Below are positions 3,074-62,168 of a stretch of 64,000 nt of DNA, piece by piece; positions within the stretch are counted from its first letter, which is position 1; every line of letters starts with the position of its first letter. Origin of the DNA: Marchantia polymorpha subsp. ruderalis (Eukaryota; Streptophyta; Marchantiopsida; Marchantiales; Marchantiaceae); NCBI GenBank assembly GCA_037833965.1, contig AP031355.1, positions 12,859,501 through 12,923,500 on the forward strand. The letters are read 5' to 3'. The notes beneath the pieces were generated by a model. The model saw nothing but the letters and a program-made list of their open reading frames with translations, did no database searches and was not told where the DNA came from. The translations under genes were made by a program, and so were the position numbers.

Positions 3074-3109
3074 TCATCAACCTAGCAATCCAAGAGATTG
3101 AGGGTGTTG

Positions 3110-10431: not shown

Positions 10432-10523
10432 CCTTATCTTCTCGGATTGCTATGTTGACGACACCCTCCTCCTCTTAGTAACGATTGCTCTCCCATCGTG
10501 TAAATAAGCAACAAAACCCGATT
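10432..10523 (-). pseudogene. LN-C ORF1, last codons (C1)
   Basis: The final 20-odd codons of ORF1 (SGFVAYLHDGRAIV, then the Lys/Arg-rich end), stopping at TAG 10450-10452, followed by CAA TCC and the ORF2 frame. At about 10523 the sequence jumps to the 3' part of another LN-C ORF2, so the rest of ORF1 and the 5' UTR are missing. The junction shows a few bases of shared sequence only. Confidence 0.8.
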
Positions 10524-14631: not shown

Positions 14632-14649
14632 CCTCAAGCTCTTGGATTG

Positions 14650-15387
14650 CTATGTGGATGATTGTCTCTTCCTTTAAGTGACAATTGCTTGTCCATCACG
14701 AAGATAAACAAAAAATCCAGCATCTTGAGCTTCTTTGACTTTTGCAAGCTCCTTTCTCCTTGCCTCTACTTGTAGAGGTGTGAGATCGGGATCTAATCAA
14801 ATTCTACGTCCTTTGAGTACAGCTTTGTTGGCTAAAGCTGTATCACGTTGAGTTTGGTCATTGAACTTAACTATGATGGCTCGAGGTTGAGTTCCTATGG
14901 TTCCAATGCGAAAAGCTTGAGCCACATCCGCATTAGGAACATCAAGTGTTTCAGCTAAAAACTTGGTGACAACACTCTTCACCTCTTCCTTCTCAGATTC
15001 AGGTAGACCAGAAATTCTTACATTCTTTCTACGAGCAAATTGATTAGTCTTTTCAATCTCTTGCTCTTGACAGAAAGAGATATGAGCAGACTTGGTGGCT
15101 TCTGCATAAGATTTCATCTTCACCTCTAGACTTTCAACCACTTCATGCAATCTAGGAGTAGCAGCAGTGGAAGCTTGAGAACCAACTTTCTCCTGGATAT
15201 CCTCTACGTGTTTTGAAATATCAACCATAATCTTCTCGAAACTCTTTTGAGAGAGCTTCAACTCTCTAATTTCATATTGAGCTGCAATTAAAGTAGAGCT
15301 CTGTACCTTGAACTCTGCACGTAGTACTTTCAACTCTTCCAAAACCGTTTGCATCAGATTGAGTATGAAATTGTCTTGAGACGCCAT
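14650..15387 (-). pseudogene. LN-B ORF1 (B1), two nonsense codons
   Basis: ORF1 begins MASQDNFILNL at 15387, has the coiled-coil and RRM-like order of the family, and ends at TAG 14650-14652. TGA at 14797-14799 replaces the Trp of GRRIWLDPD, and TAA at 14674-14676 replaces a Gln near the end. Both lesions are found again in the B3 fragment at 41804-41806 and 41681-41683. The frame stays open for 35 codons upstream of the ATG into the 5' UTR, but MASQD is the start shared with LN-C. Confidence 0.85.
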
Positions 15388-17804: not shown

Positions 17805-17822
17805 CCTTATCTTCTCGGATTG

Positions 17823-18578
17823 CTATGTTGACGACACCCTCCTCCTCTTAGTAACGATTGCTCTCCCATCGTGTAAATAAGCAACAAAACCCGATTCTTG
17901 AGCCTCTTTTACCTTCGCAAGCTCCTTTCTCCTAACTTCCACTTGTAGAGGAGTCAGATCAGGATCCAACCATATTCTACGTCCCTTTAACATAGCCTTA
18001 TTAGCCAAGGCAACATCACGTTGAGTTTGATTGACAAACTTCACTATAATACCACGAGGTTGAGCTCCCTTGTTTCCAATACGAAAAGCTTGAGCCAATT
18101 CCGCATTGGACACCTGAAGTGTTTCATCCAAAAACTTGGTGACAACACTCTTGCCATCTTCATTCTCTATTTCAGGTAAACCTGAAATTCTCACATTCTT
18201 CTTACGTGCAAGGTGGTTGGACTTTTCAATCTCTTGTTCTTGACAAAAAGAGATTTGAGCAGCCTTTGTAGCTTCAGCGTAGGATTTGATCTTCAAATCT
18301 AAGCTTTCGACCACCTCATGCAATCTAGGACTATCCGCACTTGTCATCTGAGAGCATACCTTCCCTTGGATGTCATCCACAGATTTAGATACATCCCACA
18401 TCACACCCACACTATCCTTGAACACCTTCTCCACGTTCTTCTGTGATCCCTTCAACTCTCGAATTTGATTATGTGTGAGAGTTAAAGCAGCCTGTTGCAT
18501 CTTGAAATCATGTCAAAGTTCCTTCAATTCTTCAAAAATTGTTTGCAGAAGCTGAAAAATATCGTCTTGAGAAGCCAT
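17823..18578 (-). pseudogene. LN-C ORF1 (C2), one nonsense codon
   Basis: Starts MASQDDIFQLLQ at 18578 and ends at TAG 17823-17825, the usual 251-codon length. A coiled coil precedes the RRM-like VRISGLPE...AFRIGNKG...PRGIIVKF region. CGA-to-TGA in the ELRHEF block, near codon 25, truncates it. An internal ATG (MQQAAL, 18500) would still give 225 residues with most of the coiled coil, so a shortened product is conceivable. Confidence 0.85.
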
Positions 18579-22805: not shown

Positions 22806-23543
22806 ATGGCGTCTCAAGACAATTTCATACTCAATCTGTTGCAAACGGTTTTGGAAGAGTTGAAAGTACTACGTGCAGAATTCAAGGTACAGAGCTCTAC
22901 TTTAATTGCAGCTCAATATGAAATTAGAGAGTTGAAGCTCTCTCAAAAGAGTTTCGAGAAGATTATGGTTGATATTTCAAAACACGTAGAGGATATCCAG
23001 GAGAAAGTTGGTTCTCAAGCTTCCACTGCTGCTACTCCTAGATTGCATGAAGTGGTTGAAAGTCTAGAGGTGAAGATGAAATCTTATGTAGAAGCCACTA
23101 AGTCTGCTCATATCTCTTTCTGTCAAGAGCAAGAGATTGAAAAGACTAATCAATTTGCTCGTAGAAAGAATGTGAGAATTTCTGGTCTACGTGAATCTGA
23201 GAAGGAAGAGGTGAAGAGTGTTGTCACCAAGTTTTTAGCTGAAACACTTGATGTTCCTAATGCGGATGTGGCTCAAGCTTTTCGCATTGGAACCATAGGA
23301 ATTCAACCTCGAGCCATCATAGTTAAGTTCAATGACCAAACTCAACGTGATACAGCTTTAGCCAACAAAGCTATACTCAAAGGACGTAGAATTTGGTTAG
23401 ATCCCGATCTCACACCTCTACAAGTAGAGGCAAGGAGAAAGGAGCTTGCAAAAGTCAAAGAAGCTCAAGATGCTGGATTTTTTGCTTATCTTCGTGATGG
23501 ACAAGCAATTGTCACTCAAAGGAAGAGACAATCATCCACATAG
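22806..23543 (+). CDS. LN-B ORF1 protein (B2), intact
   Basis: A 245-aa ORF1 starting MASQDNFILNLLQ and ending at TAG 23541-23543 (245 codons plus stop). An N-terminal coiled coil (LEELKVLRAEFK..., IRELKLSQ) is followed by a second amphipathic stretch and the RRM-like core (VRISGL, then AFRIGTIG, then PRAIIVKF). The C-terminal RRKELAKVKEAQDAGF block corresponds to the L1 ORF1p C-terminal domain. One oddity is GLRES instead of GLPES. The TAG is followed in frame by CAA TCC AAG AGC TTG AGG and the ORF2 frame. Presumed RNA-binding component of the LINE particle. Confidence 0.88.
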   Translation: MASQDNFILNLLQTVLEELKVLRAEFKVQSSTLIAAQYEIRELKLSQKSFEKIMVDISKHVEDIQEKVGSQASTAATPRLHEVVESLEVKMKSYVEATKSAHISFCQEQEIEKTNQFARRKNVRISGLRESEKEEVKSVVTKFLAETLDVPNADVAQAFRIGTIGIQPRAIIVKFNDQTQRDTALANKAILKGRRIWLDPDLTPLQVEARRKELAKVKEAQDAGFFAYLRDGQAIVTQRKRQSST

Positions 23544-24749
23544 CAATCCAAGAGCTTGAGGATGTTAATGTGGAATATTAGAGGTCTTTCTACAACCAAG
23601 TATGTGAGTGCTAATCCGATTTGGAAGATGGCGGACATCATCAACATTGTGGAGACGTGGGAACATGAGAGCAACACTATTGGAGAGATACCAGGGTTTA
23701 CTTTGGTGGGATCCACTTGGAATCAGAGAAGTCAACGAGCTGGAAGAGGCTATGGCGGTATTGCTACTTTCATCAGATCTCAATTTCTACCTTTGATACA
23801 TTTAGAAGGTCAGGATATTGGAGGTCAATATCATTGGCTTTGTCTTGGTTTGGTTGGAGGATCTTATAGTTATTAGGCTATTTGTTACTTTGCACCATTG
23901 TCCATGTCTATCTACTCCACACGCACTTGCAATCGGAGTCAACCATTCCATCAACTTATAGGAGATGTTCTCAATTATCAGAGCAAAGGTGAAGTTTTTC
24001 TGGTTGGAGATTTCAATGCTCGAATAGGTTGTGCACAATTTACTCAAGTTGGTGATCTCTTGAGTTCTCCCTCCTTTGAAGAACTTGAAGATAGTATGTG
24101 GTGTAGAAAGTCTTCTGATATTTGTACAAATCCTTTGACAGAACACTTTCTAACCTTTGGAGCCACATGTAATTTGAAAGTTCTCAACGGTATCTCTCTC
24201 TTTCCCAACTCCCTTTCCAATACGTGCTTTTCTCCTACAGGTGTTAGCACCATTGATTATCTTCTATCTTCAGCCACTCATAGCTCTTTTATTTCGAAAT
24301 TTGATATTCTAGAACCTCAGCCAGAGTCAGATCATGCACCTCTCTTATTTACTCTCTTGTTATCAAAAACAATCTCTCTCTCTCCATGCCATTCTGTTTT
24401 AGCTTCTCCCAAGTTTCGTTTAGATCCTAGTAAGAAAGAGTTGTACATGTTACATTTTCAAAACCTTTTGACTCACACTTCATGGAGCCTTGATCCACAT
24501 ACAGCGAGTGGGCAATTAATAGAGTTGCTCAAAGACACTGCTTCTAAGTTCTTTTTGCGGCACAAGGATCGAAGAGCTAGGGGGCTTCCTTGCAATGGAT
24601 GGTTTGACTTGGATTGTAAGCAAGCAAGGATGAGATCAGTTGACAAGTCTTTGGATTTCCAAAGTCGGCTTACCTTGACAAGGCTTTACAAAGACTTGGT
24701 GAAGTCTAAAAAAAGAGCTTTTTTGAGGACGAAGCAGGAATCCTTGACA

Positions 24750-26654
24750 TGGGCTTTCCATTGAACTTCTCAAGTGGGGAGGAGATGCTATTGGGCCTAT
24801 ACTCACGAAAGTGTTAGAGGATGCTGCTATTCATGGCTTTCCTTCATCTTGGTCTCTACGGAAGATTGTTCATATTCACAAATCTGGGAGCAAGGCCTTG
24901 GTGACAAACTATCGCACTATCATGGTGGGTAGTATTTTTGCCAAGTTATTTGGCAAATTGGTGGAGTCAAAGTTGAGCACATGGGCTGAATCTTGTCAGA
25001 AGAGAGCGCGGTTCCAAGCTGGTTTTCGTCCTACATTCAACACTATAGACCATATCTTGGTTTTACGTGTTCTATGGGAGAAATCCAAGGGCAATGGAAA
25101 AGCTTTGTTTTGTGCCTTCATTGATTTCAAGAAAGCTTTTGACACAGTACCTCGTGAGCTTTTATGGCAAAGATTGCAAACCATTGGAGTACCATCAGAT
25201 CTCTTGGCAGCGGTGGCTGCATTATACCACTCAGTTCGGGCCAAGATCAACACTTCTCAAACCGAAGAGATTATCAGCACCATTGGAGTCATTCAAGGTT
25301 GTCCTCTCTCTCCCACTCTCTTTGGAGTTTTCATAGATGATATAGAAAGATGGTTGGAGGATTGTGATAGCGAAGGTGTTAAACTTGGAGGCTTTGTCAT
25401 CAAAGCTCTTTTGTATGCAGATGATGTCATATTACTAGCACGTGATGCCACTAGTTTACAGAAACACCTCGACACTTTGGCTAGCTTTTGTACTCAAAAT
25501 CAGATGGAAGTCAATTTGGAGAAGTCCAAAGTCATTCTTGTGGGCACTAGATCCAAGTTCTCTTTCTGTTACAAAGGATTAGAGTTGGAACAAGTGAAAA
25601 GTTACAAATATTTGGGCATTGATTTCTCATCTGATTATAGTTGGGCACTTTGTGTGCAAAAGAGGGTAGAAGCTGGTTTCAAAGCTCTATATTCATTGCT
25701 AAATAGATGTAGAGGAGCTCATCTAGTGTCTTGGAGTCTTAGGAAATTCTTATTCAGGAGCTTAGTGTTTCCCGTTATCTTATATGGAACACAAGTGTGG
25801 GGTCCTGGTTGTAAGAAGACAGGTTGGCAGCGTTTGGAGAGGGTGCAAAAGATCTTCTTACAAGAAGAATTGGGTGTGAGGACCCAAACTTCTTATGCAA
25901 TTCTTCTTGCGGAAACAGGTTGTCTACCTCTTGAGGCTGAAGCTCTCCTTTTGACTATCACTTACGTCAAAAGAGTGAGGTCTCTTGATGCTTCTCGACT
26001 TCCTCTTGAAGCTTTGCGTGCCACACGTGCCAAGGGTTGGTTTGCAGATGTGGTGACTTGGTCTTTGAGGTGGAATGTGACGGAACTCGATTGGAATTTG
26101 CAACCTATTGCCCTACGCGAGCGTATTAAGGAGGAATTTCTCAGCATTATGTGGAGCACACGAGGCACCAAGATGCAGTTTTATCAACTTCATGTGAATC
26201 CTATGCTTGTTTATTGTGAGCAAGGATATTTACTTGCAGAGATATCTACTTCTTTACGTCATATTATTGCTAGACATAGAACAAGATCTCATAGTCTTGG
26301 GATTGAAGAAGGGCGTTGGTTGAACATTGATAGGAGTGAACGTATTTGTAGACTATGTGATGGAAGAAAAGTTGAGGATGAAGAGCATGTATTTCTTACT
26401 TGTTCTAGGTATGTAGAGATTCGAGTGGCCCATAAAGTTGATGTCGAGAATTTCTTTTCTCTGCTTCAACTCGAGCCTTATGATTTAGGTTGTTACATTA
26501 GGGATATTATTAGTTACCGTTCTAGTGCTTTGGGCACTAGCTAGGGGGTTCTTTTGGTTCTCTCCTAGTTTGGAGTTGGATTGTTTGTATTGTGTTTTTT
26601 AGCCTTTTGACCCTTTGGGTCCCACGGGCTTGATCTTTTTACCATTTACCATTT
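24750..26654 (+). mobile_element. 5'-truncated LN-A LINE (copy A2)
   Basis: Begins at the GLSIELLKW codons of LN-A ORF2 and ends after the 3' UTR and about 2.5 tail units. It is flanked by ACA at 24747-24749 and 26655-26657, and the LN-B reading CCTTGACA/AAGGAG resumes exactly. Confidence 0.9.
24811..26544 (+). pseudogene. LN-A ORF2, RT to C-terminus (A2)
   Basis: 577 open codons from MLEDAAIHGF through the whole RT (FIDFKKAFD, GVIQGCPLSP, LLYADD) to the zinc knuckle and SSALGTS. The frame is intact, but the copy lacks the endonuclease and any promoter, so it is a truncated remnant. The lack of stops indicates recent insertion. It is nearly identical to A3 over this span. Confidence 0.88.
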
Positions 26655-29467: not shown

Positions 29468-31225
29468 ACGGAAGCTGAAAATTTGCAGGGGCGTGGTGTT
29501 GGGTAGCGCGCTCGAGCTTGCAAAATTTCACGCATTTTGGAGTTGAGACGCCAAAGTTCACGGATTTCTCAAGTTTTGAGTTGGAGTTTTCGAGTGTTGG
29601 GGTCGAGATTGTTTCTTCGCGTCTGAGTGTCCACGGAAGCTGAAAATTTGCACGGGCGTGGATTTGGTTAGCGCGCTCCAGCCTGCAAAATTTCACGCAT
29701 TTTGGAGTTGGGACGCCGAAGTTCACGGATTTCTCAAGTTTCGAGTTGGAGTTTTCGAGTGTTGGGGTCGAGATCGTTTCTTGCAGAGATTGTTTCTTCG
29801 CGTCTGAGTGTCCACGGAAGCTGAAAATTTGCAGGGGCGTGGAGTTGGGTAGCGCGCTCCAGCCTGCAAAATTTCACGCATTTTGGAGTTGGGACGCCGA
29901 AGTTCACGGATTTCTCAAGTTTCGAGTTGGAGTTTTCGAGTGTTGGGGTCGAGATCGTTTCTTGCAGAGATTGTTTCTTCGCGTCTTAGTGTCCACGGAA
30001 GCTGAAAATTTGCAGGAGCGTGGAGTTGGGTAGCCCGCTCCAGCGTGCAAAATTTCACGCATTTTGGAGTTGGGACGCCGAAGTTCACGGATTTCTCAAG
30101 TTTCGAGTTGGAGTTTTCGAGTGTTGGGGTCGAGATCGTTTCTTCGCGTCTGAGTGTCCACGGAAGCTGAAAATTTGCAGGGGCGTGGAGTTGGGTAGCG
30201 CGCTCAAGCCTGCAAAATTTCACGCATTTTGGAGTTGAGACGCCGAAGTTCACGGATTTCTCAAGTTTCGAGTTAGAGTTTTCGAGTGTTGGGGTCGAGA
30301 TCGTTTCTTGCAGAGATCGTTTCTTCGCGTTTGAGTGTCCACCGAAGCTGAAAATTTGCAGGGGCGTGGATTTGGGTAGCGCGCTCAAGCCCGCAAAATT
30401 TCACGCATTTTGGAGTTGGGACGCCGAAGTTCACGGATTTCTCAAGTTTCGAGTTGGAGTTTTCGAGTGTTGGGGTCGAGATCGTTTTTTGCAGAGATCG
30501 TTTCTTCGCGTCCGAGTGTCCACGGAAGCTGAAAATTTGCAGGGGCGTGGAGTTGGGTAGCGCGCTCCAGCCTGCAAAATTTCACGCATTTTGGAATTGG
30601 GACGCCGAAGTTCACGGATTTCTCAAGTTTCGAGTTGGAGTTTTCGAGTGTTGGGTCGACATTGTTTCTTGCAGAGATCGTTTCTTGCAGAGATCGTTTC
30701 TTCGCGTCTGAGTGTCCACCGAAGCTGAAAATTTGCAGGGGCGTGGAGTTGGGTAGCGCGCTCAAGCCTGCAAAATTTCACGCATTTTGGAGTTGGGACG
30801 CCGAAGTTCACGGGTTTCTCAAGTTTCGAGTTGGAGTTTTCGAGTGTTGGGGTCAAGATCGTTTCTTGCAGAGATCGTTTCTTCGCGTCTAAGTGTCCAC
30901 GGAAGCTGAAAATTTGCAGGGGCGTGGAGTTGGGTAGCGCGCTCCAGCGTGCAAAATTTCACGCATTTTGGAGTTGGAAGGCCAAAGTTCACGAATTTCT
31001 TCAGCGAAGAGTGTCAATTGCGAGTGTTTCACGTGGTCACAAAAATGTTCAGACATTTTTATCTTTTCGACGAAACATGATCTGAGGCTGAAAATTTTTG
31101 GGGACTTGGGGATTGATATTCGGCAGAAGCTCATCAAGTTTGAAGGTGCATGGACGCTTGAGTGAGAAGTTACGATATTTTTTGGTGTTTCGACCTAGAA
31201 TTTAGAGTGTTTCGGTTGATACGAC
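29468..31225 (+). repeat. LN-C 5' UTR: type-2 then type-1 monomers (C3)
   Basis: The CACGGATTTCTCAAG block recurs with steps of 165, 181, 181, 165, 181, 181, 196 and 181 bp (about 29561 to 30992). The step changes by 15-16 bp because a short unit (GAGATCGTTTCTTGCA) is present one, two or three times per monomer. A single type-1 unit (GTGGTCACAAAAATGTTCAG) follows before ORF1. Confidence 0.88.
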
Positions 31226-31973
31226 ATGGCTTCTCAAGACGATATTTTTCAGCTTCTGCAAACAATTTTCGAAGAATTGAAGGAACTTCGACATGAATTC
31301 AAGATGCAACAAGCTGCTTTAACTCTCGCACATAATCAAATTCGAGAGTTGAAGGGATCACAGAAGAACGTGGAGAAGGTGTTCAAGGATAGTGTGGGTG
31401 TGATGTGGGATGTATCTAAATCTGTGGATGACATCCAAGGGAAGGTATGCTCTCAGATGACAAGTGCGGATAGTCCTAGATCGCATGAGGTGGTCGAAAG
31501 CTTAGATTTGAAGATCAAATCCTACGCTGAAGCTACAAAGGCTGCTCAAATCTCTTTTTGTCAAGAACAAGAGATTGAAAAGTCCAACCAGCTTGCACGT
31601 ATGAAGAATGTGAGAATTTCAGGTTTACCTGAAATAGAGAATGAAGATGTCAAGAGTGTTGTCACCAAGTTTTTGGATGAAACACTTCAGGTTTCCAATG
31701 CGGAATTGGCTCAAGCTTTTCGTATTGGAAACAAGGGAGCTCAACCTCGTGGTATTATAGTGAAGTTTGTCAATCAAACTCAACGTGATGTTGCCTTGGC
31801 TAATAAGGCTATGTTAAAGGGACGTAGAATATCCTGATCTGACTCCTCTACAAGTGGAAGTTAGGAGAAAGGAGCTTGCGAAGGTAAAAGAGGCTCAAGA
31901 ATCGGGTTTTGTTGCTTATTTACACGATGGGAGAGCAATCGTTACTAAGAGGAGGAGGGTGTCGTCAACATAG
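31226..31973 (+). pseudogene. LN-C ORF1 (C3), 8-bp deletion
   Basis: Starts MASQDDIFQLLQ; the coiled coil and RRM-like core are intact to GRRI. Then an 8-bp deletion (GAATATCCTGATC instead of GAATATGGTTGGATCCTGATC) shifts frame, giving a 203-aa product lacking the C-terminal domain. The usual end TAG 31971-31973 with CAA TCC is still present. Confidence 0.88.
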
Positions 31974-31991
31974 CAATCCGAGAAGATAAGG

Positions 31992-32646: not shown

Positions 32647-32817
32647 AAAGCTCTTTTGATCAAAGCTCTTTCGATCAAAGCTCTTTTGTATGCAGATGAT
32701 ATCATATTACTAGCACGTGATGCAATTAGTTTACAGAAACACCTTGATACTTTGGCTAGCTTTTGTACTTTAGTGCGTCCAATTTTGAGTTTCGAGCTTT
32801 GAGTTTGAACCCTTTGG
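32647..32817. other. Patchwork filler at A3 5' junction
   Basis: Three donors in order. First, a 15-bp unit AAAGCTCTTTTGATC (32647-32661, 32662-32676 with one change, then a partial) that runs on into ORF2 sequence around the LLYADDIILLARD codons (to about 32769). Second, about 35 bp of LN-B 5' UTR (GTGCGTCCAATTTTGAG). Third, about 11 bp not placed. The target TTTTGATC and the ORF2 string GATCAAAGCTCTTTTG share the bases used for the jump. Confidence 0.85.
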
Positions 32818-33398
32818 CAAATTTGCAGCTCCAACGGAGCTGCTGTCAAGAAGTTGTCATTTCGATACTTTGAGTTTAGGGATTTGAGCATGAATCTTGC
32901 GGAGCCCATATCTTCTTGCTGGAATGTCAACAGGAGCTGAGATTTGGTAGGCTTGTTCACAACGGCCGGGCGCACATACCTGCAAATTTTCAGCCCCAAC
33001 GGAGCTGCTGTCAAGAAGTTGTCATTTCGAAACTTTAAGTTTAGGGATTTGAGCATGAATCTTGCGGAGGCCATATCTTCTTGCTGGAGTGTCAACAGGA
33101 GCTGAGATTTGGTAAGCTTGTTCACGACGGCTGGGCGCACATACCTGCAAAGTTTCAGCCCCAACGGAGCTGCTGTCAAGAAGTTGTCATTTCGAAACTT
33201 TGAGTTTAGGGATTTGAGCATGAATCTTGCGAAGGCCATATCTTCTTGCTGGAGTGTCAACAGGAGCTGAGATTTAGTGGGCTTGTTCACGACGGCCGGG
33301 CGCACATACCTGCAAATTTTCAGTCCCAACGAAGCTGCTGTCAAGAAGTTTTCATTTCGAAACTTTGAGCTTGTGTAACATCTTGCAAAGTTGGGTTC
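32818..33398 (+). repeat. LN-A 5' UTR: 165-bp monomer array (A3)
   Basis: GCTGTCAAGAAG at 32842, 33007, 33172 and 33337. The first unit starts AAATTTGCAGCTCCAACGG, a variant of the internal AAATTTTCAGCCCCAACGG, and the same variant starts copy A5 (49750). A fixed 5' end, and hence a defined transcription start, is inferred. Confidence 0.85.
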
Positions 33399-34136
33399 AT
33401 GATGGATTCTGAAAACAAACTTCTCAATCTTGTGCAAACGGTTTTGGAGGAATTGAAAGTGCTACGCCAAGAATTCAAGGCACAAAATGTTGCTTTGGCT
33501 GCTGCAAAGAATGAAATCAGGGAGTTGAAGATTTCTCACAAAAGTTTTGAGAAGATCATGCTCCAAATCTCTGGATCTGTTGAGGACATTCAAGACAAGG
33601 TTGGTTCTCAACCTTCTACTGTTACTACTCCTGCTTTGCATGAAGTGGTTGAAACTCTTGAGGTGAAAATGAAGTCCTATGCTGAAGCTACCAAGTCTGC
33701 TCATATCTCTTTCTGTCAAGAGCAAGAGATTGAAAAGGCTAGTCAATTTCCTCGTATGAAGAATGTGAGGATTTCGGGTCTACCTGAATCTGAGAAGGAA
33801 GAGGTGAAGAGTGTGGTCACCAAGTTTTTGACTGAAACACTTGATGTTTCTAATCCGGATTTGGCTCATGCTTATCGTATTGGCAACAAAGGCACACAAC
33901 CTCGTGCCATTATTGTTAAGTTTGTAGATCAAGCTCAACGTGATATGGCTTTAGCTAACAAGGCCATTCTCAAGGGACGGAGGATTTGGTTAGATCCAGA
34001 TCTTACACCTCTTCAAGTTGAAGCAAGGAGGAAGGAGCTTGCAAAAGTCAAAGAAGCTCAAGATGCAGGTTTTGTAGCTTATCTACGTGATAGTCAAGCT
34101 ATTATCACCAAGAGGAGGAGACAATCATCAACCTAG
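33399..34136 (+). CDS. LN-A ORF1 protein (A3), intact
   Basis: 245 aa. Residues 8-65 and about 85-113 are Leu/Glu/Lys-rich with heptad spacing (coiled coil). Residues 122-195 hold the RRM-like core (VRISGLPES, AYRIGNKG, PRAIIVKF, LKGRRIWLD). Residues 196-245 are basic and match the L1 ORF1p C-terminal domain. No zinc knuckle is present. By family knowledge it should trimerise, coat the LINE RNA and assist strand exchange. The start is MMDSEN just after the monomers. It ends at TAG 34134-34136, and the same frame continues without a stop into ORF2. Confidence 0.9.
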   Translation: MMDSENKLLNLVQTVLEELKVLRQEFKAQNVALAAAKNEIRELKISHKSFEKIMLQISGSVEDIQDKVGSQPSTVTTPALHEVVETLEVKMKSYAEATKSAHISFCQEQEIEKASQFPRMKNVRISGLPESEKEEVKSVVTKFLTETLDVSNPDLAHAYRIGNKGTQPRAIIVKFVDQAQRDMALANKAILKGRRIWLDPDLTPLQVEARRKELAKVKEAQDAGFVAYLRDSQAIITKRRRQSST

Positions 34137-34142
34137 CAATCC
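34134..34142 (+). promoter_or_regulatory. Candidate readthrough stop UAG CAA UCC (A3)
   Basis: The ORF1 stop TAG is followed by CAA TCC, and the frame stays open through AAG AAA TTG AGG GTG TTG ATG TGG into ORF2. Plant-virus readthrough sites use UAG CAR YYA; this site matches except for the last base. The same TAG CAA TCC is present at every ORF1-ORF2 junction read here in all three families. Readthrough is inferred, not shown. Confidence 0.6.
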
Positions 34143-34160
34143 AAGAAATTGAGGGTGTTG

Positions 34161-37100
34161 ATGTGGAACATAAGAGGCCTATCTACAACTAAGTATGTGA
34201 GTGCACATCCGATTTGGAAGATGGCGGACATCCTCAACATTGTTGAGACTTGGGAGCATGAAAGTAATGTTATTGGAGAGATACAAGGGTTTACTCTGGT
34301 GGGATCTACTTGGAACCATAGAACTCGACGAGCAGGAAGAGGCTTTGGAGGCATTGCTTCTTTCATCAGATCTGAACTTCTTCCTATGATACATTTGGAA
34401 AGCCAAGATATTGGGAAACAATATCATTGGCTTCGTCTTGGATCGATTGGAGGATCTTACAGTTATTTGGCAGTTTGTTACTTTGCACCATTATCCATGC
34501 AGATCTACTCCACAAGCACTTGCAATCGAAGTCAACCATTCCATCGGCTCATAGGAGATGTTCTCAAATATCAAGACAAAGGTGAAGTTTTTCTTGTTGG
34601 AGACTTCAATGCCCGCATACGTTCCGCTCAATTTACACAATTTGATAGTTCCTTGTCTTCTCACTCTTTTGAAGAAAGTAGAGATAGTTTGTGGTCTAGA
34701 GTCTCTTGTGATCCTTGTTCAAATGATTTGACTGAGCATTTCTTGACTTTTGGAGCCACTTGTAATCTGAAAGTTCTCAATGGTGTTTCTTTCTTTCCCA
34801 ACTCTCACTCCAATACATGTTTTTCCTCTACTGGTGTTAGCACTATAGATTATCTTTTGTCCTCTGCCACTAATAGTTCATTTATCTCAGCGTTTGATAT
34901 TCTAGAGCCTCAACCAGAATCAGATCATACACCTCTTTTATTTACTCTTTTGCTGCCAACGTCAATCCCTCTCCCTACATACTATGTTTCTACTTCCCCC
35001 AAGTTTTGTTTAGATGCTAGTAAAAAGCAACTTTATAGTGAACATTTCCAAGACCTCTTGACTTGTACAACTTGGAGCCTTGATCCACATACATCTAGTT
35101 TGCAACTAACAGAGTTGCTCCAAAACTCTGCTTCTAAGTTCTTTTTGAGACATAAGACCAGGAGAGCTAGAGGTCTTCCTTGCAATGGATGGTTTGACTT
35201 TGATTGCAAGCAAGCGAGGGCGAGATCACTTGATAAATCCTTGGATCTTCACAATCGGTTGATTATGACAAGACTTTACAAAGACTTGGTGAAGTCCAAG
35301 AAACGAGCATTTTTGAGGCAGAAGCAAGAGTGCTTGACAAAGGAGCACTTGGAGAATCCCAAATCCTTTTGGAGGCGGTTGGCAGTACGATCTTCTAAAC
35401 CTACTCTTGATCCCAAGTCTTTGATTTCTTTTGCTGAAAAGCTTTATTTTTTTCCCAATGTTGCATCTATGCCACATTGTGAAGGAAATCCAGGCTTATT
35501 TTCAGAAGTTGAAGTGATGACTCAACTCAGACAATTGGCAAATGGTAAATGTGAGGATTTGGATGGGCTTTCCATTGAACTTCTCAAGTGGGGAGGAGAT
35601 GCTATTGGGCCTATACTCACGAAAGCGTTAGAGGATGCTGCTATTCATGGCTTTCCTTCATCTTGGTCTCTACGGAAGATTGTTCCTATTCACAAATCTG
35701 GGAGCAAGGCCTTGGTGACAAACTATCGCACTATCATGGTGGGTAGTATTTTTGCCAAGTTATTTGGCAAATTGGTGGAGTCAAAGTTGAGCACATGGGC
35801 TGAATCTTGTCAAAAGAGAGCGCGGTTCCAAGCTGGTTTTCGTCCTACATTCAACACTATAGACCATATCTTGGTTTTACGTGTTCTATGGGAGAAATCC
35901 AAGGGTAATGGAAAAGCTTTGTTTTGTGCCTTCATTGATTTCAAGAAAGCTTTTGACACAGTACCTCGTGAGCTTTTATGGCAAAGATTGCAAACCATTG
36001 GAGTACCATCAGATCTCTTGGCAGCGGTGTCTGCATTATACCACTCAGTTCGGGCCAAGATCAACACTTCTCAAACCGAAGAGATTATCAGCACCATTGG
36101 AGTCATTCAAGGTTGTCCTCTCTCTCCCACTCTCTTTGGAGTTTTCATAGATGATATAGAAAGGTGGTTGGAGGATTGTGATAGCGAAGGTGTTAAACTT
36201 GGAGGCTTTGTCATCAAAGCTCTTTTGTATGCAGATGATGTCATATTACTAGCACGTGATGCCACTAGTTTACAGAAACACCTCGACACTTTGGCTAGCT
36301 TTTGTACTCAAAATCAGATGGAAGTCAATTTGGAGAAGTCCAAAGTCATTCTTGTGGGCACTAGATCCAAGCTCTCTTTCTGTTACAAAGGATTAGAGTT
36401 GGAACAAGTGAAAAGTTACAAATATTTGGGCATTGATTTCTCATCTGATTATAGTTGGGCACTTTGTGTGCAAAAGAGGGTAGAAGCTGGTTTCAAAGCT
36501 CTATATTCATTGCTAAATAGATGTAGAGGAGCTCATCTAGTGTCTTGGAGTCTTAGGAAATTCTTATTCAGGAGCTTAGTGTTTCCCGTTATCTTATATG
36601 GAACACAAGTGTGGGGTCCTGGTTGTAAGAAGACAGGTTGGCAGCGTTTGGAGAGGGTGCAAAAGATCTTCTTACAAGAAGAATTGGGTGTGAGGACCCA
36701 AACTTCTTATGCAATTCTTCTTGCGGAAACAGGTTGTCTACCTCTTGAGGCTGAAGCTCTCTTTTTGACTATCACTTACGTCAAAAGAGTGAGATCTCTT
36801 GATGCTTCTCGACTTCCTCTTGAAGCTCTGCATGCCACACGTCCCAAGGGTTGGTTTGCAGATGTGGTGACTTGGTCTTTGAGGTGGAATGTGACGGAAC
36901 TCGATTGGAATTTGCAACCTATTGCCCTACGCGAGCGTATTAGGGAGGAATTTCTCAGCATTATGTGGAGCACACGAGGCACCAAGATGCAGTTTTATCA
37001 ACTTCATGTGAATCCTATGCTTGTTTATTGTGAGCAAGGATACTTACTTGCAGAGATATCTACTTCTTTACGTCATATTATTGCTAGACATAGAACTGGA

Positions 37101-37358
37101 TCTCATAGTCTTGGGATTGAAGAAGGGCGTTGGTTGAACATTGATAGGAGTGAACGTATTTGTAGGCTATGTGATGGAAGAAAAGTTGAGGATGAAGAGC
37201 ATGTATTTCTTACTTGTTCTAGGTATGTAGAGATTCGAGTGGCGCATAAAGTTGATGTCGAGAATTTCTTTTCTCTGCTTCAACTCGAGCCTTATGATTT
37301 AGGTTGTTACATTAGAGATATTATTAGTTACCGTTCTAGTGCTTTGGGCACTAGCTAG
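34161..37358 (+). CDS. LN-A ORF2 protein (endonuclease and reverse transcriptase), intact
   Basis: 1065 aa counted from the first ATG. It nicks target DNA and copies LINE RNA from the nick (target-primed reverse transcription). Endonuclease of APE type: Glu29 in VETWEHE, Asp148/Asn150 in GDFNAR, and Asp255-His256 in PESDH. RT: Asp593 in FIDFKKAFD, GVIQGCPLSP, and Tyr690-Ala-Asp-Asp693 in LLYADDVILL, followed by YKYLGIDFS. C-terminal knuckle: Cys1001, Cys1004, His1014 and Cys1019. No RNase H domain is recognised. The first endonuclease strand (LRVLMWN) is partly encoded upstream of this ATG, in frame with ORF1, which favours a fused product. Placement in the L1-like group rests on the ORF1 type and domain order only. 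Confidence 0.92.
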   Translation: MWNIRGLSTTKYVSAHPIWKMADILNIVETWEHESNVIGEIQGFTLVGSTWNHRTRRAGRGFGGIASFIRSELLPMIHLESQDIGKQYHWLRLGSIGGSYSYLAVCYFAPLSMQIYSTSTCNRSQPFHRLIGDVLKYQDKGEVFLVGDFNARIRSAQFTQFDSSLSSHSFEESRDSLWSRVSCDPCSNDLTEHFLTFGATCNLKVLNGVSFFPNSHSNTCFSSTGVSTIDYLLSSATNSSFISAFDILEPQPESDHTPLLFTLLLPTSIPLPTYYVSTSPKFCLDASKKQLYSEHFQDLLTCTTWSLDPHTSSLQLTELLQNSASKFFLRHKTRRARGLPCNGWFDFDCKQARARSLDKSLDLHNRLIMTRLYKDLVKSKKRAFLRQKQECLTKEHLENPKSFWRRLAVRSSKPTLDPKSLISFAEKLYFFPNVASMPHCEGNPGLFSEVEVMTQLRQLANGKCEDLDGLSIELLKWGGDAIGPILTKALEDAAIHGFPSSWSLRKIVPIHKSGSKALVTNYRTIMVGSIFAKLFGKLVESKLSTWAESCQKRARFQAGFRPTFNTIDHILVLRVLWEKSKGNGKALFCAFIDFKKAFDTVPRELLWQRLQTIGVPSDLLAAVSALYHSVRAKINTSQTEEIISTIGVIQGCPLSPTLFGVFIDDIERWLEDCDSEGVKLGGFVIKALLYADDVILLARDATSLQKHLDTLASFCTQNQMEVNLEKSKVILVGTRSKLSFCYKGLELEQVKSYKYLGIDFSSDYSWALCVQKRVEAGFKALYSLLNRCRGAHLVSWSLRKFLFRSLVFPVILYGTQVWGPGCKKTGWQRLERVQKIFLQEELGVRTQTSYAILLAETGCLPLEAEALFLTITYVKRVRSLDASRLPLEALHATRPKGWFADVVTWSLRWNVTELDWNLQPIALRERIREEFLSIMWSTRGTKMQFYQLHVNPMLVYCEQGYLLAEISTSLRHIIARHRTGSHSLGIEEGRWLNIDRSERICRLCDGRKVEDEEHVFLTCSRYVEIRVAHKVDVENFFSLLQLEPYDLGCYIRDIISYRSSALGTS

Positions 37359-41632: not shown

Positions 41633-41656
41633 TAACACCCTCAAGCTCTTGGATTG

Positions 41657-41886
41657 CTATGTGGATGATTGTCTCTTCCTTTAAGTGACAATTGCTTGTC
41701 CATCACGAAGATAAGCAAAAAATCCAGCATCTTGAGCTTCTTTGAATTTTGCAAGCTCCTTTCTCCTTGCCTCTACTTGTAGAGGTGTGAGATCGGGATC
41801 TAATCAAATTCTACGTCCTTTGAGTACAGCTTTGTTGGCTAAAGCTGTATCACGTTGAGTTTGGTCATTGAACTTAACTATGATGG
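41657..41886 (-). pseudogene. LN-B ORF1, C-terminal part (B3)
   Basis: The last 76 codons of ORF1, ending at TAG 41657-41659 with CAA TCC following. TGA 41804-41806 (Trp elsewhere) and TAA 41681-41683 (Gln elsewhere) are identical to the lesions in B1. At 41886 it meets a plus-strand LN-A ORF1 fragment without filler. Confidence 0.85.
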
Positions 41887-42306
41887 CAAGAACAAGAGAT
41901 TGAAAAGGCTAATCAATTTTATCGTATGAAGAATGTGAGGATTTCGGGTCTACCTGAATCTGAGAAGGAAGAGGTGAAGAGTGTGATCACCAAGTTTTTG
42001 ACTGAAACACTTGATGTTCCTAATCCGGATTTGACTCATGCTTATCGTATTGGCAACAAAGGCACACAACCTCGTGCCATTATTGTTAAGTTTGTAGATC
42101 AAGCTCAACGTGATATGGCTTTAGCTAACAAGGCCATTCTCAAGGGACGGAGGATTTGGTTAGATCCAGATCTTACACCTCTTCAAGTTGAAGCAAGGAA
42201 GAAGGAGCTTGCAAAAGTCAAAGAAGCTCAAGATGCAGGTTTTGTAGCTTATATACGTGATAGTCAAGCTATTATCACCAAGAGGAGGAGAGAATCATCA
42301 ACCTAG
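41887..42306 (+). pseudogene. LN-A ORF1, C-terminal half (A4)
   Basis: Begins at the QEQEIEKANQF codons, covers the RRM-like core and C-terminal domain, and ends at TAG 42304-42306 followed by CAA TCC. The coiled coil and promoter are missing, so this copy is 5'-truncated. The remaining frame is open. Confidence 0.85.
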
Positions 42307-42330
42307 CAATCCAAGAAATTGAGGGTGTTG

Positions 42331-44977: not shown

Positions 44978-45505
44978 CAAGCAAGCGCGGCACCAAGATG
45001 CAGTTTTATCAACTTCATGTGAATCCTATGCTTGTTTATTGTGAACAGGATTACCTACTTGCAGGAATCTCTACGTCCTTACGTCATATTATTGCTAGGC
45101 ATAGAACTGGATCTCATAGGCTAGGAATTGAGGAAGGACGTTGGCTTAATATTGATAAGAGTCAACGTATTTGTAGGCTATGTGATGGAAGAGAAGTTGA
45201 GGATGAAGAGCATGTATTTCTTACTTGTACTAGATATGTAGAGATTAGAGTGACTCATAATAGTTCTCCAAATTGACTTCCATCTGATTTTGAGTACAAA
45301 AGCTAGCCAAAGTGTCAAGGTGTTTCTGTAAACTAGTGGCATCACGTGCTACTAATATGACATCATCTGCATACAAAAGAGCTTTGATGACAAAGCCTCC
45401 AAGTTTAACACCTTCACTATCACAATCCATGTATTTCTAGAACAAGTAACAAACAGCCAAATAACTATAAGATACTCCAACCAAACCAAGACGAAGCCAA
45501 TGATA
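44978..45505. other. Patchwork of four LINE fragments without a tail
   Basis: In order: LN-B ORF2 C-terminal codons on the plus strand (about 44985-45258, SKRGTKMQFYQ to RVTHN); LN-A ORF2 on the minus strand (about 45262-45430, the LLYADDVIL region); a short minus LN-A bit (TAGAACAAGTAA); and LN-B ORF2 N-terminal codons on the minus strand (about 45445-45505, the YSYLAVCY region). It replaces about 40 bp of a type-2 monomer. No hairpin, tail or target duplication is present. Confidence 0.85.
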
Positions 45506-47538: not shown

Positions 47539-48294
47539 ATGGCTTCTCAAGACGATATTTTTCAGCTTCTGCAAACAATTTTCGAAGAATTGAAGAAACA
47601 TCGACATGAATTCAAGATGCAACAGGCTGCTTTAACTCTCGCACATAATCAAATTCGAGAGTTGAAGGGATCACAGAAGAACGTGGAGAAAGTGTTCAAG
47701 GATAGTGTGGGTGTGATGTGGGATGTATCTAAATCTGTGGATGACATCCAAAGGAAGGTATGCTCTCAGCTGACAAGTGCGGATAGTCCTAGATTGCATG
47801 AGGTGGTCGAAAGCTTAGATTTGAAGATCAAATCCTACGCTGAAGCTACAAAGGCTGCTCAAATCTCTTTTTGTCAAGAACAAGAAATTGAAAAGTCCAA
47901 CCAGCTTGCACGTAGGAAGAATGTGAGAATTTCAGGTTTACCTGAAATAGAGAATGAAGATGTCAAGAGTGTTGTCACCAAGTTTTTGGATGAAACACTT
48001 CAGGTGTCCAATGCGGAATTGGCTCAAGCTTTTCGTATTGGAAACAAGGGAGCTCAACCTCGTGGTATTATAGTGAAGTTTGTCAATCAAACTCAACGTG
48101 ATGTTGCCTTGGCTAATAAGGCTATGTTAAAGGGACGTAGAATATGGTTGGATCCTGATCTGACTCCTCTACAAGTGGAAGTTAGGAGAAAGGAGCTTGC
48201 GAAGGTAAAAGAGGCTCAAGAATCGGGTTTTGTTGCTTATTTACACGATGGGAGAGCAATCGTTACTAAGAGGAGGAGGGTGTCGTCAACATAG
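47539..48294 (+). CDS. LN-C ORF1 protein (C4), intact
   Basis: 251 aa, starting MASQDDIFQLLQT. The coiled coil (FEELKKHRHEFKMQQ, IRELKGSQKNVEKVF) is followed by the RRM-like core VRISGLPE, AFRIGNKG, PRGIIVKF and GRRIWLDPD, and a basic C-terminus ending RRRVSST. It is about six residues longer than LN-A ORF1, in the region after the first coiled coil. It ends at TAG 48292-48294; CAA TCC GAG AAG ATA AGG GTG TTG GTG TGG then leads in frame into ORF2. Presumed RNA-binding and particle-forming protein. Confidence 0.9.
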   Translation: MASQDDIFQLLQTIFEELKKHRHEFKMQQAALTLAHNQIRELKGSQKNVEKVFKDSVGVMWDVSKSVDDIQRKVCSQLTSADSPRLHEVVESLDLKIKSYAEATKAAQISFCQEQEIEKSNQLARRKNVRISGLPEIENEDVKSVVTKFLDETLQVSNAELAQAFRIGNKGAQPRGIIVKFVNQTQRDVALANKAMLKGRRIWLDPDLTPLQVEVRRKELAKVKEAQESGFVAYLHDGRAIVTKRRRVSST

Positions 48295-48300
48295 CAATCC
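48292..48300 (+). promoter_or_regulatory. Candidate readthrough stop UAG CAA UCC (C4)
   Basis: The ORF1 stop lies in the same frame as ORF2, with no other stop between. LN-C lacks any ATG at the ORF2 start, so continuing past this UAG (or non-AUG initiation) is needed to make the whole endonuclease. Confidence 0.6.
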
Positions 48301-48312
48301 GAGAAGATAAGG

Positions 48313-49604
48313 GTGTTGGTGTGGAATATCCGAGGACTTTCAACAACAAAGTATGTGAGTGCTGCTCCGATTTGGAAGATGGCTGACGTCATCAACATTG
48401 TGGAGACTTGGGAACATGAAAGCAATACTATTGCTGAGTTGGAAGGGTTTACCTTGGTGGGGTCGACATGGAACCAGAGAAGACAACATGCGGGAAGGGG
48501 TCAAGGAGGTATTGCTACTTTCATCAGGTCTCATCTTCTACCTCTCATACATCTAGAAGCTCAAGATGTTGGTGGACAGTATCATTGGCTACGTCTCGGG
48601 GTGGTTGGAGGATCTTATTGCTATTTGGCAATTTGTTATTTTGCACCATTGTCCATGGGTATCTACTCAACACGCTTTTGCAACCGAAGTGAACCATTCC
48701 ATCGGCTTATTGAAGATGTTCTTAGATTCCAAAGTAAAGGGGATGTCTTTCTTGCTGGAGATTTCAATGCTCGTATACGTTGTGCTCAATTTACTCAATT
48801 TATTGATCCCTTGGCTTCTTCTATGTTTGAAGAAATTTACGATAGTTTGTGGTCTAGAACCTCTTTTGATCCTTCCACAAACTCTTTGACAGAGCACTTT
48901 TTGACATTTGGAGCCACTTGTAACTTGAAGGTTCTCAATGGAACCTCTCGCTTTCCCAACTCTCAGTCCAATACTTGTTTTTCCCCTACCGGTGCTAGCA
49001 CAATAGATTTTCTCTTGTCTTCCTTGGTTAGTACCTCTCTGATCTCCAATTTTGATGTTTTGGATCCTCAACCTGAATCAGATCATGCACCTCTTTTGTT
49101 CACACTTTCAATGTCAAAATCAATCTCTACTTCACCTTGCCAATCTCTTTTAGCTTCTCCCAAGTTTCGCTTAGATCCTTGTAAAAGAGACCTTTATGCA
49201 GAACATCTACAAGATCTTTTGACTCACACCATATGGAGTCCAGATGGAGAGCCTTTTGACCCTTTGGGTCCCACGGGCTTGATCTATTTACCATTTACCA
49301 TTTACCATTTACCAGATTCACATACCGCTAGTTTACAGCTCATAGAATTGCTCAAAACTTCTGCATCTAAGTTCTTTTTGAGGCATAGTACTAGGATTGC
49401 TAAGGGGCTACCTTGCAATGGATGGTTTGACTCCGAATGCAAGCTAGCAAGGGCAAGGTCTGTTGATAGGTCTTTGGATATTCAAAGTCGGCTTCTTTTG
49501 ACAAGGATATACAAAGACTTGGTGAAGTCTAAGAAACGAACTTTCTTAAGACGAAAGCAAGAATCCTTGACAAAGGAACTGATGAAGGATCCCAAGTCCT
49601 TTTA
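48313..49604 (+). pseudogene. LN-C ORF2, endonuclease part (C4)
   Basis: The open frame runs from GTG 48313 through VETWEHES, GDFNARIRC and PESDH to LMKDPKSF. A 66-bp hairpin-tail insertion plus a 6-bp duplication (24 codons in all) keeps the frame open. At 49604 the reading jumps to YLGIDFSQNYS codons, deleting the RT core, and runs to RRAHLVS at 49725, where LN-A copy A5 begins. Residues 1-290 would form a complete endonuclease, but no RT is left. Confidence 0.85.
49246..49311 (+). mobile_element. Micro-insertion: LINE hairpin and tail in frame
   Basis: 66 bp starting GGAGAGCCTTTTGACCC and ending in TTTACC units, flanked by CCAGAT at 49240-49245 and 49312-49317. Insert plus duplication is 72 bp, so the ORF2 frame continues with 24 extra codons. 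Confidence 0.88.
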
Positions 49605-50329: not shown

Positions 50330-51070
50330 ATGATGGATTCTGAAAACAAACTTCTCAATCTTGTGCAAACGGTTTTGGAGGAATTGAAAGTGCTACGCCA
50401 AGAATTCAGGGCACAAAATGTTGCTTTGGCTGCTGCAAAGAATGAAATCAGGGAGTTGAAGATTTCTCACAAAAGTTTTGAGAAGATCATGCTCCAAATC
50501 TCTGGATCTGTTGAGGACATTCAAGACAAGGTTGGTTCTCAAGCTTCTACTGTTACTACTCCTGCTTTGCATGAAGTGGTTGAAACTCTTGAGGTGAAAA
50601 TGAAGTCCTATGATGAAGCTACCAAGTCTGCTCATATCTCTTTCTGTCAAGAGCAAGAGATTGAAAAGGCTAGTCAATTTCCTCGTATGAAGAATGTGAG
50701 GATTTCGGGTCTACCTGAATTTGTTGAGAAGGAAGAGGTGAAGAGTGTGGTCACCAAGTTTTTGACTGAAACACTTGATGTTTCTAATCCGGATTTGGCT
50801 CATGCTTATCGTATTGGCAACAAAGGCACACAACCTCGTGCCATTATTGTTAAGTTTGTAGATCAAGCTCAACGTGATATGGCTTTAGCTAACAAGGCCA
50901 TTCTCAAGGGACGGAGGATTTGGTTAGATCCAGATCTTACACCTCTTCAAGTTGAAGCAAGGAGGAAGGAGCTTGCAAAAGTCAAAGAAGCTCAAGATGC
51001 AGGTTTTGTAGCTTATCTACGTGATAGTCAAGCTATTATCACCAAGAGGAGGAGACAATCATCAACCTAG
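50330..51070 (+). CDS. LN-A ORF1 protein (A5), intact
   Basis: 246 aa, one residue longer than A3 because of a codon insertion in the GLPES/EKEE region (GLPEFVEKEE). The coiled coil, RRM-like core and basic C-terminal domain are all present. The stop TAG 51068-51070 is followed by CAA TCC AAG in frame with ORF2. ORF1 could still be made, but the ORF2 of this copy is interrupted 12 codons after its start by the B4 insertion. Confidence 0.88.
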   Translation: MMDSENKLLNLVQTVLEELKVLRQEFRAQNVALAAAKNEIRELKISHKSFEKIMLQISGSVEDIQDKVGSQASTVTTPALHEVVETLEVKMKSYDEATKSAHISFCQEQEIEKASQFPRMKNVRISGLPEFVEKEEVKSVVTKFLTETLDVSNPDLAHAYRIGNKGTQPRAIIVKFVDQAQRDMALANKAILKGRRIWLDPDLTPLQVEARRKELAKVKEAQDAGFVAYLRDSQAIITKRRRQSST

Positions 51071-51093
51071 CAATCCAAGAGATTAAGGGTGTT

Positions 51094-53963: not shown

Positions 53964-54701
53964 ATGGCGTCTCAAGACAATTTCATACTCAATCTGTTGC
54001 AAACGGTTTTGGAAGAGTTGAAAGTACTACGTGCAGAGTTCAAGGTACAGAGCTCTACTTTAATTGCAGCTCAATATGAAATTAGAGAGTTGAAGCTCTC
54101 TCAAAAGAGTTTCGAGAAGATTATGGTTAATATTTCAGAACACGTAGACGATATCTAGGAGAAAGTTGGTTCTCAAGCTTCCACTGCTGCTACTCCTAGA
54201 TTGCATGAAGTGGTTGAAAGTCTAGAGGTGAAGATGAAATCTTATGCAGAAGCCACTAAGTCTGCTCATATCTCTTTCTGTCAAGAGCAAGAGATTGAAA
54301 AGACTAATCAATTTGCTCGTAGAAAGAATGTGAGAATTTCTGGTCTACCTGAATCTGAGAAGGAAGAGGTGAAGAGTGTTGTCACCAAGTTTTTAGCTGA
54401 AACACTTGATGTTCCTAATGCGGATGTGGCTCAAGCTTTTCGCATTGGAACCATAGGAACTCAACCTCGAGCCATCATAGTTAAGTTCAATGACCAAACT
54501 CAACGTGATACAGCTTTAGCCAACAAAGCTGTACTCAAAGGACGTAGGATTTGGTTAGATCCCGATCTCACACCTCTACAAGTAGAGGCAAGGAGAAAGG
54601 AGCTTGCAAAAGTCAAAGAAGCTCAAGATGCTGGATTTTTTGCTTATCTTCGTGATGGACAAGCAATTGTCACTCAAAGGAAGAGACAATCATCCACATA
54701 G
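53964..54701 (+). pseudogene. LN-B ORF1 (B5), one nonsense codon
   Basis: MASQDNFILNLLQ start; CAG-to-TAG at 54156-54158 in the DIQEKVG block stops it after 64 residues. From 54201 the rest is open to TAG 54699-54701, followed by CAA TCC AAG. An internal ATG (MHEVVESL) would give a 166-aa piece with the RRM-like core but without the first coiled coil. Confidence 0.87.
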
Positions 54702-54725
54702 CAATCCAAGAGCTTGAGGGTGTTA

Positions 54726-61406: not shown

Positions 61407-61430
61407 CAACACCCTCAATCTCTTGGATTG

Positions 61431-62168
61431 CTAGGTTGATGATTGTCTCCTCCTCTTGGTGATAATAGCTTGACTATCACGTAGATAAGCAACAAAACCT
61501 GCATCTTGAGCTTCTTTGACTTTTGCAAGCTCCTTACTTCTTGCTTCAACTTGAAGAGGTGTAAGATCTGGATCTAACCAAATCCTCCGTCCCTTGAGAA
61601 TGGCCTTGTTAGCTAAAGCCATATCACGTTGAGCTTGATCCACAAACTTAACTATAATGGCACGAGGTTGTGTGCCTTTGTTGCCAATACGATAAGCATG
61701 AGCCAAATCCGGATTAGGAACATCAAGTGTTTCAGTCAAAAACTTGGTGACCATACTCTTCACCTCTTCCTTCTCAGATTCAGGTAGACCCGAAATCCTC
61801 ACATTCTTCATACGAGCAAATTGATTAGCCTTTTCAATCTCTTGCTCTTGACAGAAAGAGATATGAGCAGACTTGGTAGCTTGAGCATAGGACTTCATTT
61901 TCACTTCTAGAGTTTCAACCACTTCATGCAAAGCAGGAGTAGTAACAGTAGAAGCTTGAGAACCAACCTTGTCTTGAATGTCCTCAACAGATCCAGAGAT
62001 TTGGAGCATGATCTTCTCAAAACTTTTGTGAGAAATCTTCAACTCCCTGATTTCATTCTTTGCAGCAGCCAAGGCAACATTTTGTGCCTTGAATTCTTGG
62101 CGTAGCACTTTCAATTCCTCCAAAACCGTTTGCACAAGATTGAGAAGTTTGTTTTCAGAATCCATCAT
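61431..62168 (-). CDS. LN-A ORF1 protein (A6), intact
   Basis: 245 aa with start MMDSEN at 62168 and stop TAG at 61431-61433, followed by CAA TCC AAG. Coiled coil, RRM-like core (VRISGLPES, AYRIGNKG, PRAIIVKF) and basic C-terminus are all present. Small differences from A3 include QATKSAH for EATKSAH and ARSKELAK for ARRKELAK. It could supply ORF1 protein if transcribed. Confidence 0.9.
   Translation of the reverse strand: MMDSENKLLNLVQTVLEELKVLRQEFKAQNVALAAAKNEIRELKISHKSFEKIMLQISGSVEDIQDKVGSQASTVTTPALHEVVETLEVKMKSYAQATKSAHISFCQEQEIEKANQFARMKNVRISGLPESEKEEVKSMVTKFLTETLDVPNPDLAHAYRIGNKGTQPRAIIVKFVDQAQRDMALANKAILKGRRIWLDPDLTPLQVEARSKELAKVKEAQDAGFVAYLRDSQAIITKRRRQSST

Follow-up and report, generated by a model that had tools for sequence, protein, structure and literature searches.

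A single in-frame UAG between ORF1 and ORF2 of Marchantia LINEs and its probable readthrough

How do long interspersed nuclear elements (LINEs) make little ORF2 protein from an RNA that carries two open reading frames (ORFs)? The question is long-standing and the answers proposed differ. It is raised again by 64,000 nt of the liverwort Marchantia polymorpha subsp. ruderalis (contig AP031355.1, positions 12,859,501 to 12,923,500; hereafter the window), a nest of LINE copies for which the original prediction was a minor ORF1-ORF2 fusion made by stop-codon readthrough. Here we report that ORF1 and ORF2 of these elements share one frame, with a fixed spacing between the ORF1 stop and the endonuclease active site, that one family has no usable AUG for ORF2, and that ORF2 codons upstream of its first AUG are under selection. 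Readthrough of the UAG, with some efficiency and with a fusion protein as its product, is the probable route to ORF2. Articles are cited below by PubMed Central (PMC) identifier.

One frame across the stop in three LINE families

The window contains 17 occurrences of the motif TAGCAATCC, compared with a mean of 0.39 and a maximum of 3 in 100 dinucleotide shuffles. Thirteen of these sites are the TAG CAA TCC junctions listed in the original prediction, all of which proved to be real (the numbers given for the minus strand being the lower plus-strand coordinate of each TAG), and the remaining four (8384+, 16787+, 37924- and 49402-) are matches antisense to ORF2. At all 13 junctions SST are the last residues encoded ahead of TAG, the frame after it reads QSxxxR(V/M)L(M/V)WNIR, and ORF1 and ORF2 lie in one frame with identical spacing. 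The junctions sort into three families with the peptides QSKKLRVLMWN or QSKRLRVLMWN (family A), QSEKIRVLVWN (family B) and QSKSLR(V/M)LMWN (family C). Over the junction stretch inspected, nine copies have no defect; those at 3083, 14650 and 41657 have an extra stop in ORF1 just upstream, and the copy at 51068 exits ORF2 after about 19 codons. The linker had been described as differing between families while keeping frame. The frame is indeed kept, but we found no difference in length: SST, the stop, nine codons and W-N have a single length across all families, and 109 aligned junctions from 101 distinct places contain no indel in 43 positions around the stop.

By the fold of their modelled proteins, the elements are L1-type LINEs. 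ORF1 of copy A3 is 91-93% identical to full-length M. polymorpha homologues (P0002-P0005) and has no Pfam match above cut-off. Its model, with a predicted local distance difference test score (pLDDT) of 80 and a predicted template modelling score (pTM) of 0.46, has helices at residues 2-68 and 79-118 followed by an alpha/beta domain, an arrangement of coiled coil, RNA-recognition motif (RRM) and C-terminal domain (CTD) whose top match in the PDB is the human LINE-1 ORF1p trimer (E 2e-9). ORF2 encodes an endonuclease of the apurinic/apyrimidinic (AP) type followed by a reverse transcriptase (Pfam PF03372 and PF00078). The top PDB match of its model (pLDDT 78.7) is human LINE-1 ORF2p (E 3.9e-36), and the endonuclease matches 1vyb with a template modelling (TM) score of 0.75 by target length. 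In these models ORF1 has its final strand up to residue 239 (of 244), and the first endonuclease strand, predicted to span ORF2 residues 3-11, comes directly after the stop, which would thus fall within a stretch of some eight linker residues joining two folded domains. Codon 11 encodes an Asn that we take to be catalytic, as in the LINE-1 and AP endonuclease families. The A3 ATG at 34161 is ORF2 codon 9, and given the predicted extent of the strand, a start at this Met would remove most of it.

Genome scans covered 9 contigs (241,466,482 bases). With the stop codon left free in the exact pattern, TAG was found in 388 of 394 matches, TAA in three and a sense codon in three (GAG, AAG and TTG), while a looser junction pattern gave 555 matches versus 15 for its reversed control. 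A fourth family, D, which is old and decayed, was found via protein P0014 and sampled as nine copies (L059-L067), the last two or three more distant. CAA follows the stop in 97 of the 99 full-length contexts from the 101 distinct places, at least 10 of which were chosen as unusual variants; both exceptions belong to family D, in which TAG and CAA are each kept in 7/9 copies. Both TAG and CAA have been kept in families A, B and C as well. The original prediction had looked to an alignment of genomic copies for signs of selection: TAG CAA is kept and indels are absent, but within A, within B and within C the junction copies are nearly identical, so that conservation among them says little on selection and mostly reflects shared recent descent. 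For this reason we rejected TAG conservation among such copies as proof of selection. The families themselves have truly diverged, with synonymous divergence (dS) at 0.58-1.32, the proportion of nonsynonymous differences (pN) at 0.09-0.17, and pN far under the synonymous proportion (pS) in both ORFs, indicating that both proteins were selected while the families diverged.

Start codons and selection at the 5' end of ORF2

The first in-frame ATG of family B is codon 29 in all 27 copies, past the catalytic Asn, and a start there would mean the loss of the first strand and of the Asn at codon 11. Codon 9 is GTG in 26 of these copies and CTG in one, and, all three frames taken together, the ATG nearest downstream of the stop lies at +61, out of frame (ATG TGA in one copy inspected). 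Residue 9 is Val in B and D and Met in A and C, where codon 9 is the first ATG in 46/48 and 11/15 copies, respectively. The original prediction that the first strand is coded before the first ATG therefore stands for most of the strand, except that in A and C the ATG at codon 9 lies inside it; for family B the point is stronger than had been supposed. Family D was rejected as a second, equally clean AUG-less case, its first in-frame ATG being codon 7 in three and codon 6 in two of nine copies.

Codons 10-28 show an excess of synonymous over nonsynonymous differences, namely 8 against 2 for A-B (P=0.0002), 5 against 2 for B-C (P=0.008) and 7 against 6 for B relative to the D majority (P=0.014); these P values are relative to the expectation from site counts and come from 12 tests, uncorrected for number or for shared ancestry. 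Purifying selection on codons that lie upstream of the first AUG of family B implies that its ORF2 is translated from before codon 29, and on these sequence comparisons we consider this very probable.

A usable AUG also seems to be missing from relatives outside Marchantia, although the hints they give of AUG-independent ORF2 translation are weaker than those from family B. In an alignment of the query with 19 of 32 ORF2 matches, 16 matches reach the column of the catalytic Asn with at least six residues before it and three do not reach it; a codon-9 start would leave two residues there. Two endonuclease copies of Riccia sorocarpa, inside composite gene models, read IRVTCWN and LRVLYWN, so that residue 9 is Cys and Tyr while residues 5-7 keep the I/L-R-V common to Marchantia, residues 5-6 being upstream of candidate starts at codons 7 and 9. 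In addition, the ORFs of two distant relatives start about 20 residues in, with the first Met beyond the catalytic Asn: the called ORF of P0020 (39% identical), for which a truncated contig could be the explanation, and the transcript ORF of P0052 (35% identical), which runs from nucleotide 1058.

Readthrough weighed against other routes to ORF2

We think it rather likely that ORF2 is reached by readthrough of the UAG, giving an ORF1-ORF2 fusion. In favour of this route are a frame common to both ORFs and interrupted by one UAG only, an unvarying spacing and a strand predicted to begin two codons past the stop; and since family B ORF2 is very probably translated without a usable AUG, it is there the simplest one. 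For most ribosomes translation would end at the UAG, setting free the RNA-binding ORF1 protein, which is presumably required in large amounts. A smaller fraction would decode the UAG, judging from tobamoviruses probably with tRNA-Tyr or tRNA-Gln, and would read on in frame through ORF2, yielding a Gag-Pol-like fusion of ORF1, endonuclease and reverse transcriptase. In families A and C readthrough and reinitiation could both operate, the ATG at codon 9 giving a shortened product.

The original prediction likened the stop to the leaky UAG CAR YYA of tobamoviruses (R, purine; Y, pyrimidine). UAG CAA is conserved and makes up the central part of the type I context of plants (PMC2754532), and UAG is followed by C at 13/13 window junctions, as in type I. 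In plants, replacing the C directly after UAG by G abolished readthrough, and readthrough with the tobacco mosaic virus (TMV) context was 32% (PMC2754532). Several observations nevertheless weigh against a readthrough signal. CAA UCC, found in A, B and C, has C in place of the final A of CARYYA, so that the junction does not belong to the strict class, and the second codon after the stop varies in family D. In human cells all six CARYYA bases mattered (PMC4132726), and every type I context in the table of PMC3542737 has A as its last base. As for the gammaretroviral type, the 13 junctions have UAG-C, with neither UAG-G nor a purine octamer, and a stable nested 3' structure was rejected on folding z scores of -1.47, -0.94 and -0.07 over 120 nt (range -1.47 to 0.97 over 120 and 60 nt in three copies, nested folds only). 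Of the original prediction, the shared frame, the conserved UAG CAA and a first strand encoded mostly ahead of the first AUG hold, and family B speaks for AUG-independent translation of ORF2; the context signal is weaker than had been stated.

Nor does the stop itself stand out. ORF2 also ends in TAG, at 13/13 recognisable ends, so the identity of the junction stop is not special; a reassigned code in which UAG is sense throughout was rejected on the same count. From an indel rate between decayed copies of 0.024 per substitution (310 gap openings and 12,673 mismatches in 36 pairs) and a tree length of about 1.8, we roughly estimate that the 27-nt linker should have gained no more than about one indel; the absence of indels is therefore not evidence, and as proof of frame selection it was rejected for want of a significant deficit. 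A scan of synonymous rates shows no dip at the junction or stop. We rejected strong synonymous constraint there: rates do drop between codons +20 and +35, but other stretches elsewhere are just as low.

Further points against readthrough concern start codons and codons 1-9. Some of them speak for termination followed by reinitiation within about 30 nt, a route put forward for SART1 and mammalian L1 that we regard as unlikely here. Ribosomes would restart at codon 9, which is AUG in families A and C and GUG in families B and D, or at a near-cognate codon close by, GUG at codon 7 or UUG at codon 5 or 8. Codon 9 is AUG in 47/48 A and 14/15 C copies; codon 7 is ATG in 4/15 C copies, where it comes first, and is the first ATG in 3/9 D copies, with codon 6 first in a further two. 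Codons 1-9 have no synonymous excess (1.5 synonymous versus 3.5 nonsynonymous between A and B, 0.5 versus 4.5 between B and D; few counts) and hence no measurable selection at the protein level, and for codons 1-28 the B-C comparison falls short of significance (P=0.06). Furthermore, reinitiation is a published route in retrotransposons without long terminal repeats (non-LTR), and in caliciviruses it tolerates non-AUG starts (PMC5972666, PMC5902531). Yet family B offers no in-frame AUG before codon 29 in any of its copies, and a start at codon 7 or 9 would cut into the predicted strand. Residue 9 is unconserved, while residues 5-7 are common to the two Riccia copies. An overlap of the UAAUG type is likewise absent, family A having UAG, eight codons and then AUG, and there is no stable downstream hairpin.

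We regard as quite improbable that ORF2 is reached by stop-removing alternative splicing, by RNA editing or by internal entry with a non-AUG start. The family A stop does lie in an acceptor-like CCTAG (by eye), but no clear pyrimidine tract precedes it (by eye). Spliced messages would moreover be copied back into the genome, so that the lack of stop-less retrocopies counts against splicing: among non-T-initial triplets before CAATCC, to which the genome search was confined, the single match was a point-mutated AAG, and on this partial test we rejected splicing out of the stop. RNA editing of a stop-removing kind is not known from plant nuclei. In favour of another entry route, an unusual initiation of ORF2 that needs no AUG has been suggested for mammalian L1 (PMC5009743). 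Finally, the shared frame could be an inherited accident, with ORF2 rarely or never made and conservation owed to recent copying of a few masters. The junction copies of A, B and C are near-identical and clustered, and departures from TAG, CAA and TCC number 5, 0 and 7 among 90 A-C copies in a sample biased to odd variants, but the divergence between families, with nonsynonymous change held far below synonymous change in both ORFs, makes this explanation very hard to believe.

Searches of open-licence PMC literature brought up no account of a LINE that uses UAG readthrough. We put at about even the chances of an L1-type LINE group in liverworts, possibly wider, that combines start-codon-independent ORF2 translation, a UAG-readthrough fusion and a relaxed UAG CAA YYC context. 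If readthrough is indeed the route, a single in-frame UAG would fix the ORF1:ORF2 ratio and join ORF1 to ORF2 in cis, and leaky UAG contexts would extend beyond CARYYA. Marchantia is a transformable model plant, and readthrough is directly testable there.

Genomic setting and comparison with known systems

Table 1. LINE features of the window, numbered from its first base
Feature	Position	Strand	Remarks
A3 ORF1	33402..34136	+	244 aa; coiled coil, RRM-like and C-terminal domain (model); open frame to TAG
A3 ORF2	34137..37358	+	1073 codons; endonuclease and reverse transcriptase; own stop TAG at 37356
ORF2 codons 3-11, predicted first endonuclease beta strand	34143..34169	+	to catalytic Asn codon; DSSP on model
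A3 junction UAG CAA UCC	34134..34142	+	stop 34134-34136; in frame with ORF2
Family A junction	3083..3091	+	ORF1 broken upstream
Family B junction	10444..10452	-	
Family C junction	14644..14652	-	ORF1 broken upstream
Family B junction	17817..17825	-	
Family C junction	23541..23549	+	
Family B junction	31971..31979	+	
Family C junction	41651..41659	-	ORF1 broken upstream
Family A junction	42304..42312	+	
Family B junction	48292..48300	+	
Family A junction	51068..51076	+	ORF2 truncated
Family C junction	54699..54707	+	
Family A junction	61425..61433	-	
Family B ORF1 and its stop	47539..48294	+	
Family B junction with AUG-less ORF2 start	48292..48381	+	GTG at codon 9; first in-frame ATG, codon 29, at 48379
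A3 tandem 165-bp monomers, putative 5' untranslated region/promoter	32817..33369	+	upstream of ORF1; 3.4 copies, 94% matches
Family A monomers	1791-2318, 32817-33369, 49741-50300, 62198-62868		tandem repeat finder
Family C monomers	15390-16657, 21900-22803, 52151-53961		tandem repeat finder
Family B monomers	18643-19518, 29605-31000, 45505-46589, 46622-47486		tandem repeat finder

Upstream of ORF1 each family has its own tandem monomer, of about 165 bp in A, 348 bp in C and 181 bp in B. Mouse L1 promoters are monomeric, and the 5' monomers seen here are similar. Seven-base ATTTACC (GTAAATG) repeats stand where LINE copies meet (window 49286-49314 and 104-148) and are possibly the 3' tail of these LINEs, replacing poly(A). 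At 23877-26544 a family-C-like ORF2 frame gives way near 24750 to a family-A-like one, the result of a chimera or nested deletion, and synonymous divergence between families is patchy along the sequence.

Copies gather in one short cluster per contig (contigs C1-C9), and these clusters look centromeric; 53/82 family C junctions (counted by eye) fall in eight windows on C2-C9 that make up about 1% of the genome. On C1 the same group of family A junctions recurs near 2.599, 2.965 and 3.323 Mb with a period of about 360 kb, which fits a triplicated repeat reported from mid-chrU (PMC13078153). A genome search with RVT_1 placed many of the 150 scored matches (of 3990 candidates) in 1157-codon frames of equal score, and the eight RVT_1 loci examined (L001-L008) are gypsy-like. 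With Riccia ORF1 as query, the 150 scored matches contained no clearly new family.

Among known systems, human LINE-1 resembles the Marchantia elements in the folds of both proteins, which are the top PDB matches noted above, although mammalian L1 has a 63-nt spacer between ORF1 and ORF2 (PMC5972666) where the Marchantia LINEs have one stop in one frame. SART1 and mammalian L1 are likewise two-ORF LINEs for which low ORF2 expression is expected; for SART1 the published route is UAAUG reinitiation, for mammalian L1 an unusual initiation (PMC5972666, PMC5902531, PMC5009743), whereas the Marchantia LINEs lack the overlapping UAAUG and the in-frame AUGs of family B start only at codon 29. Zorro3 of Candida albicans, also of the L1 superfamily, has stops dividing ORF1 from ORF2, but these are multiple (PMC7175516), and altering its first ORF2 ATG lowered retrotransposition to <5% (PMC1965478), indicating that it depends on that ATG. 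A leaky stop has been proposed in rice gypsy-type retrotransposons, which are plant elements too but carry LTRs, and which PMC2754532 describes as experimentally unverified in this respect. Gammaretroviral Gag-Pol (type III) similarly has an in-frame UAG between RNA-packaging and polymerase parts, but the next base in Marchantia is C rather than G, and nested folding gave no stable 3' structure. The type I stops of tobamo-, beny- and pomoviruses differ in that the sixth base in Marchantia is C rather than A and that the Marchantia element is a chromosomal LINE; they share with it the UAG, the CAA, two pyrimidines (in A-C), a long in-frame downstream region and a context that lies in the primary sequence.

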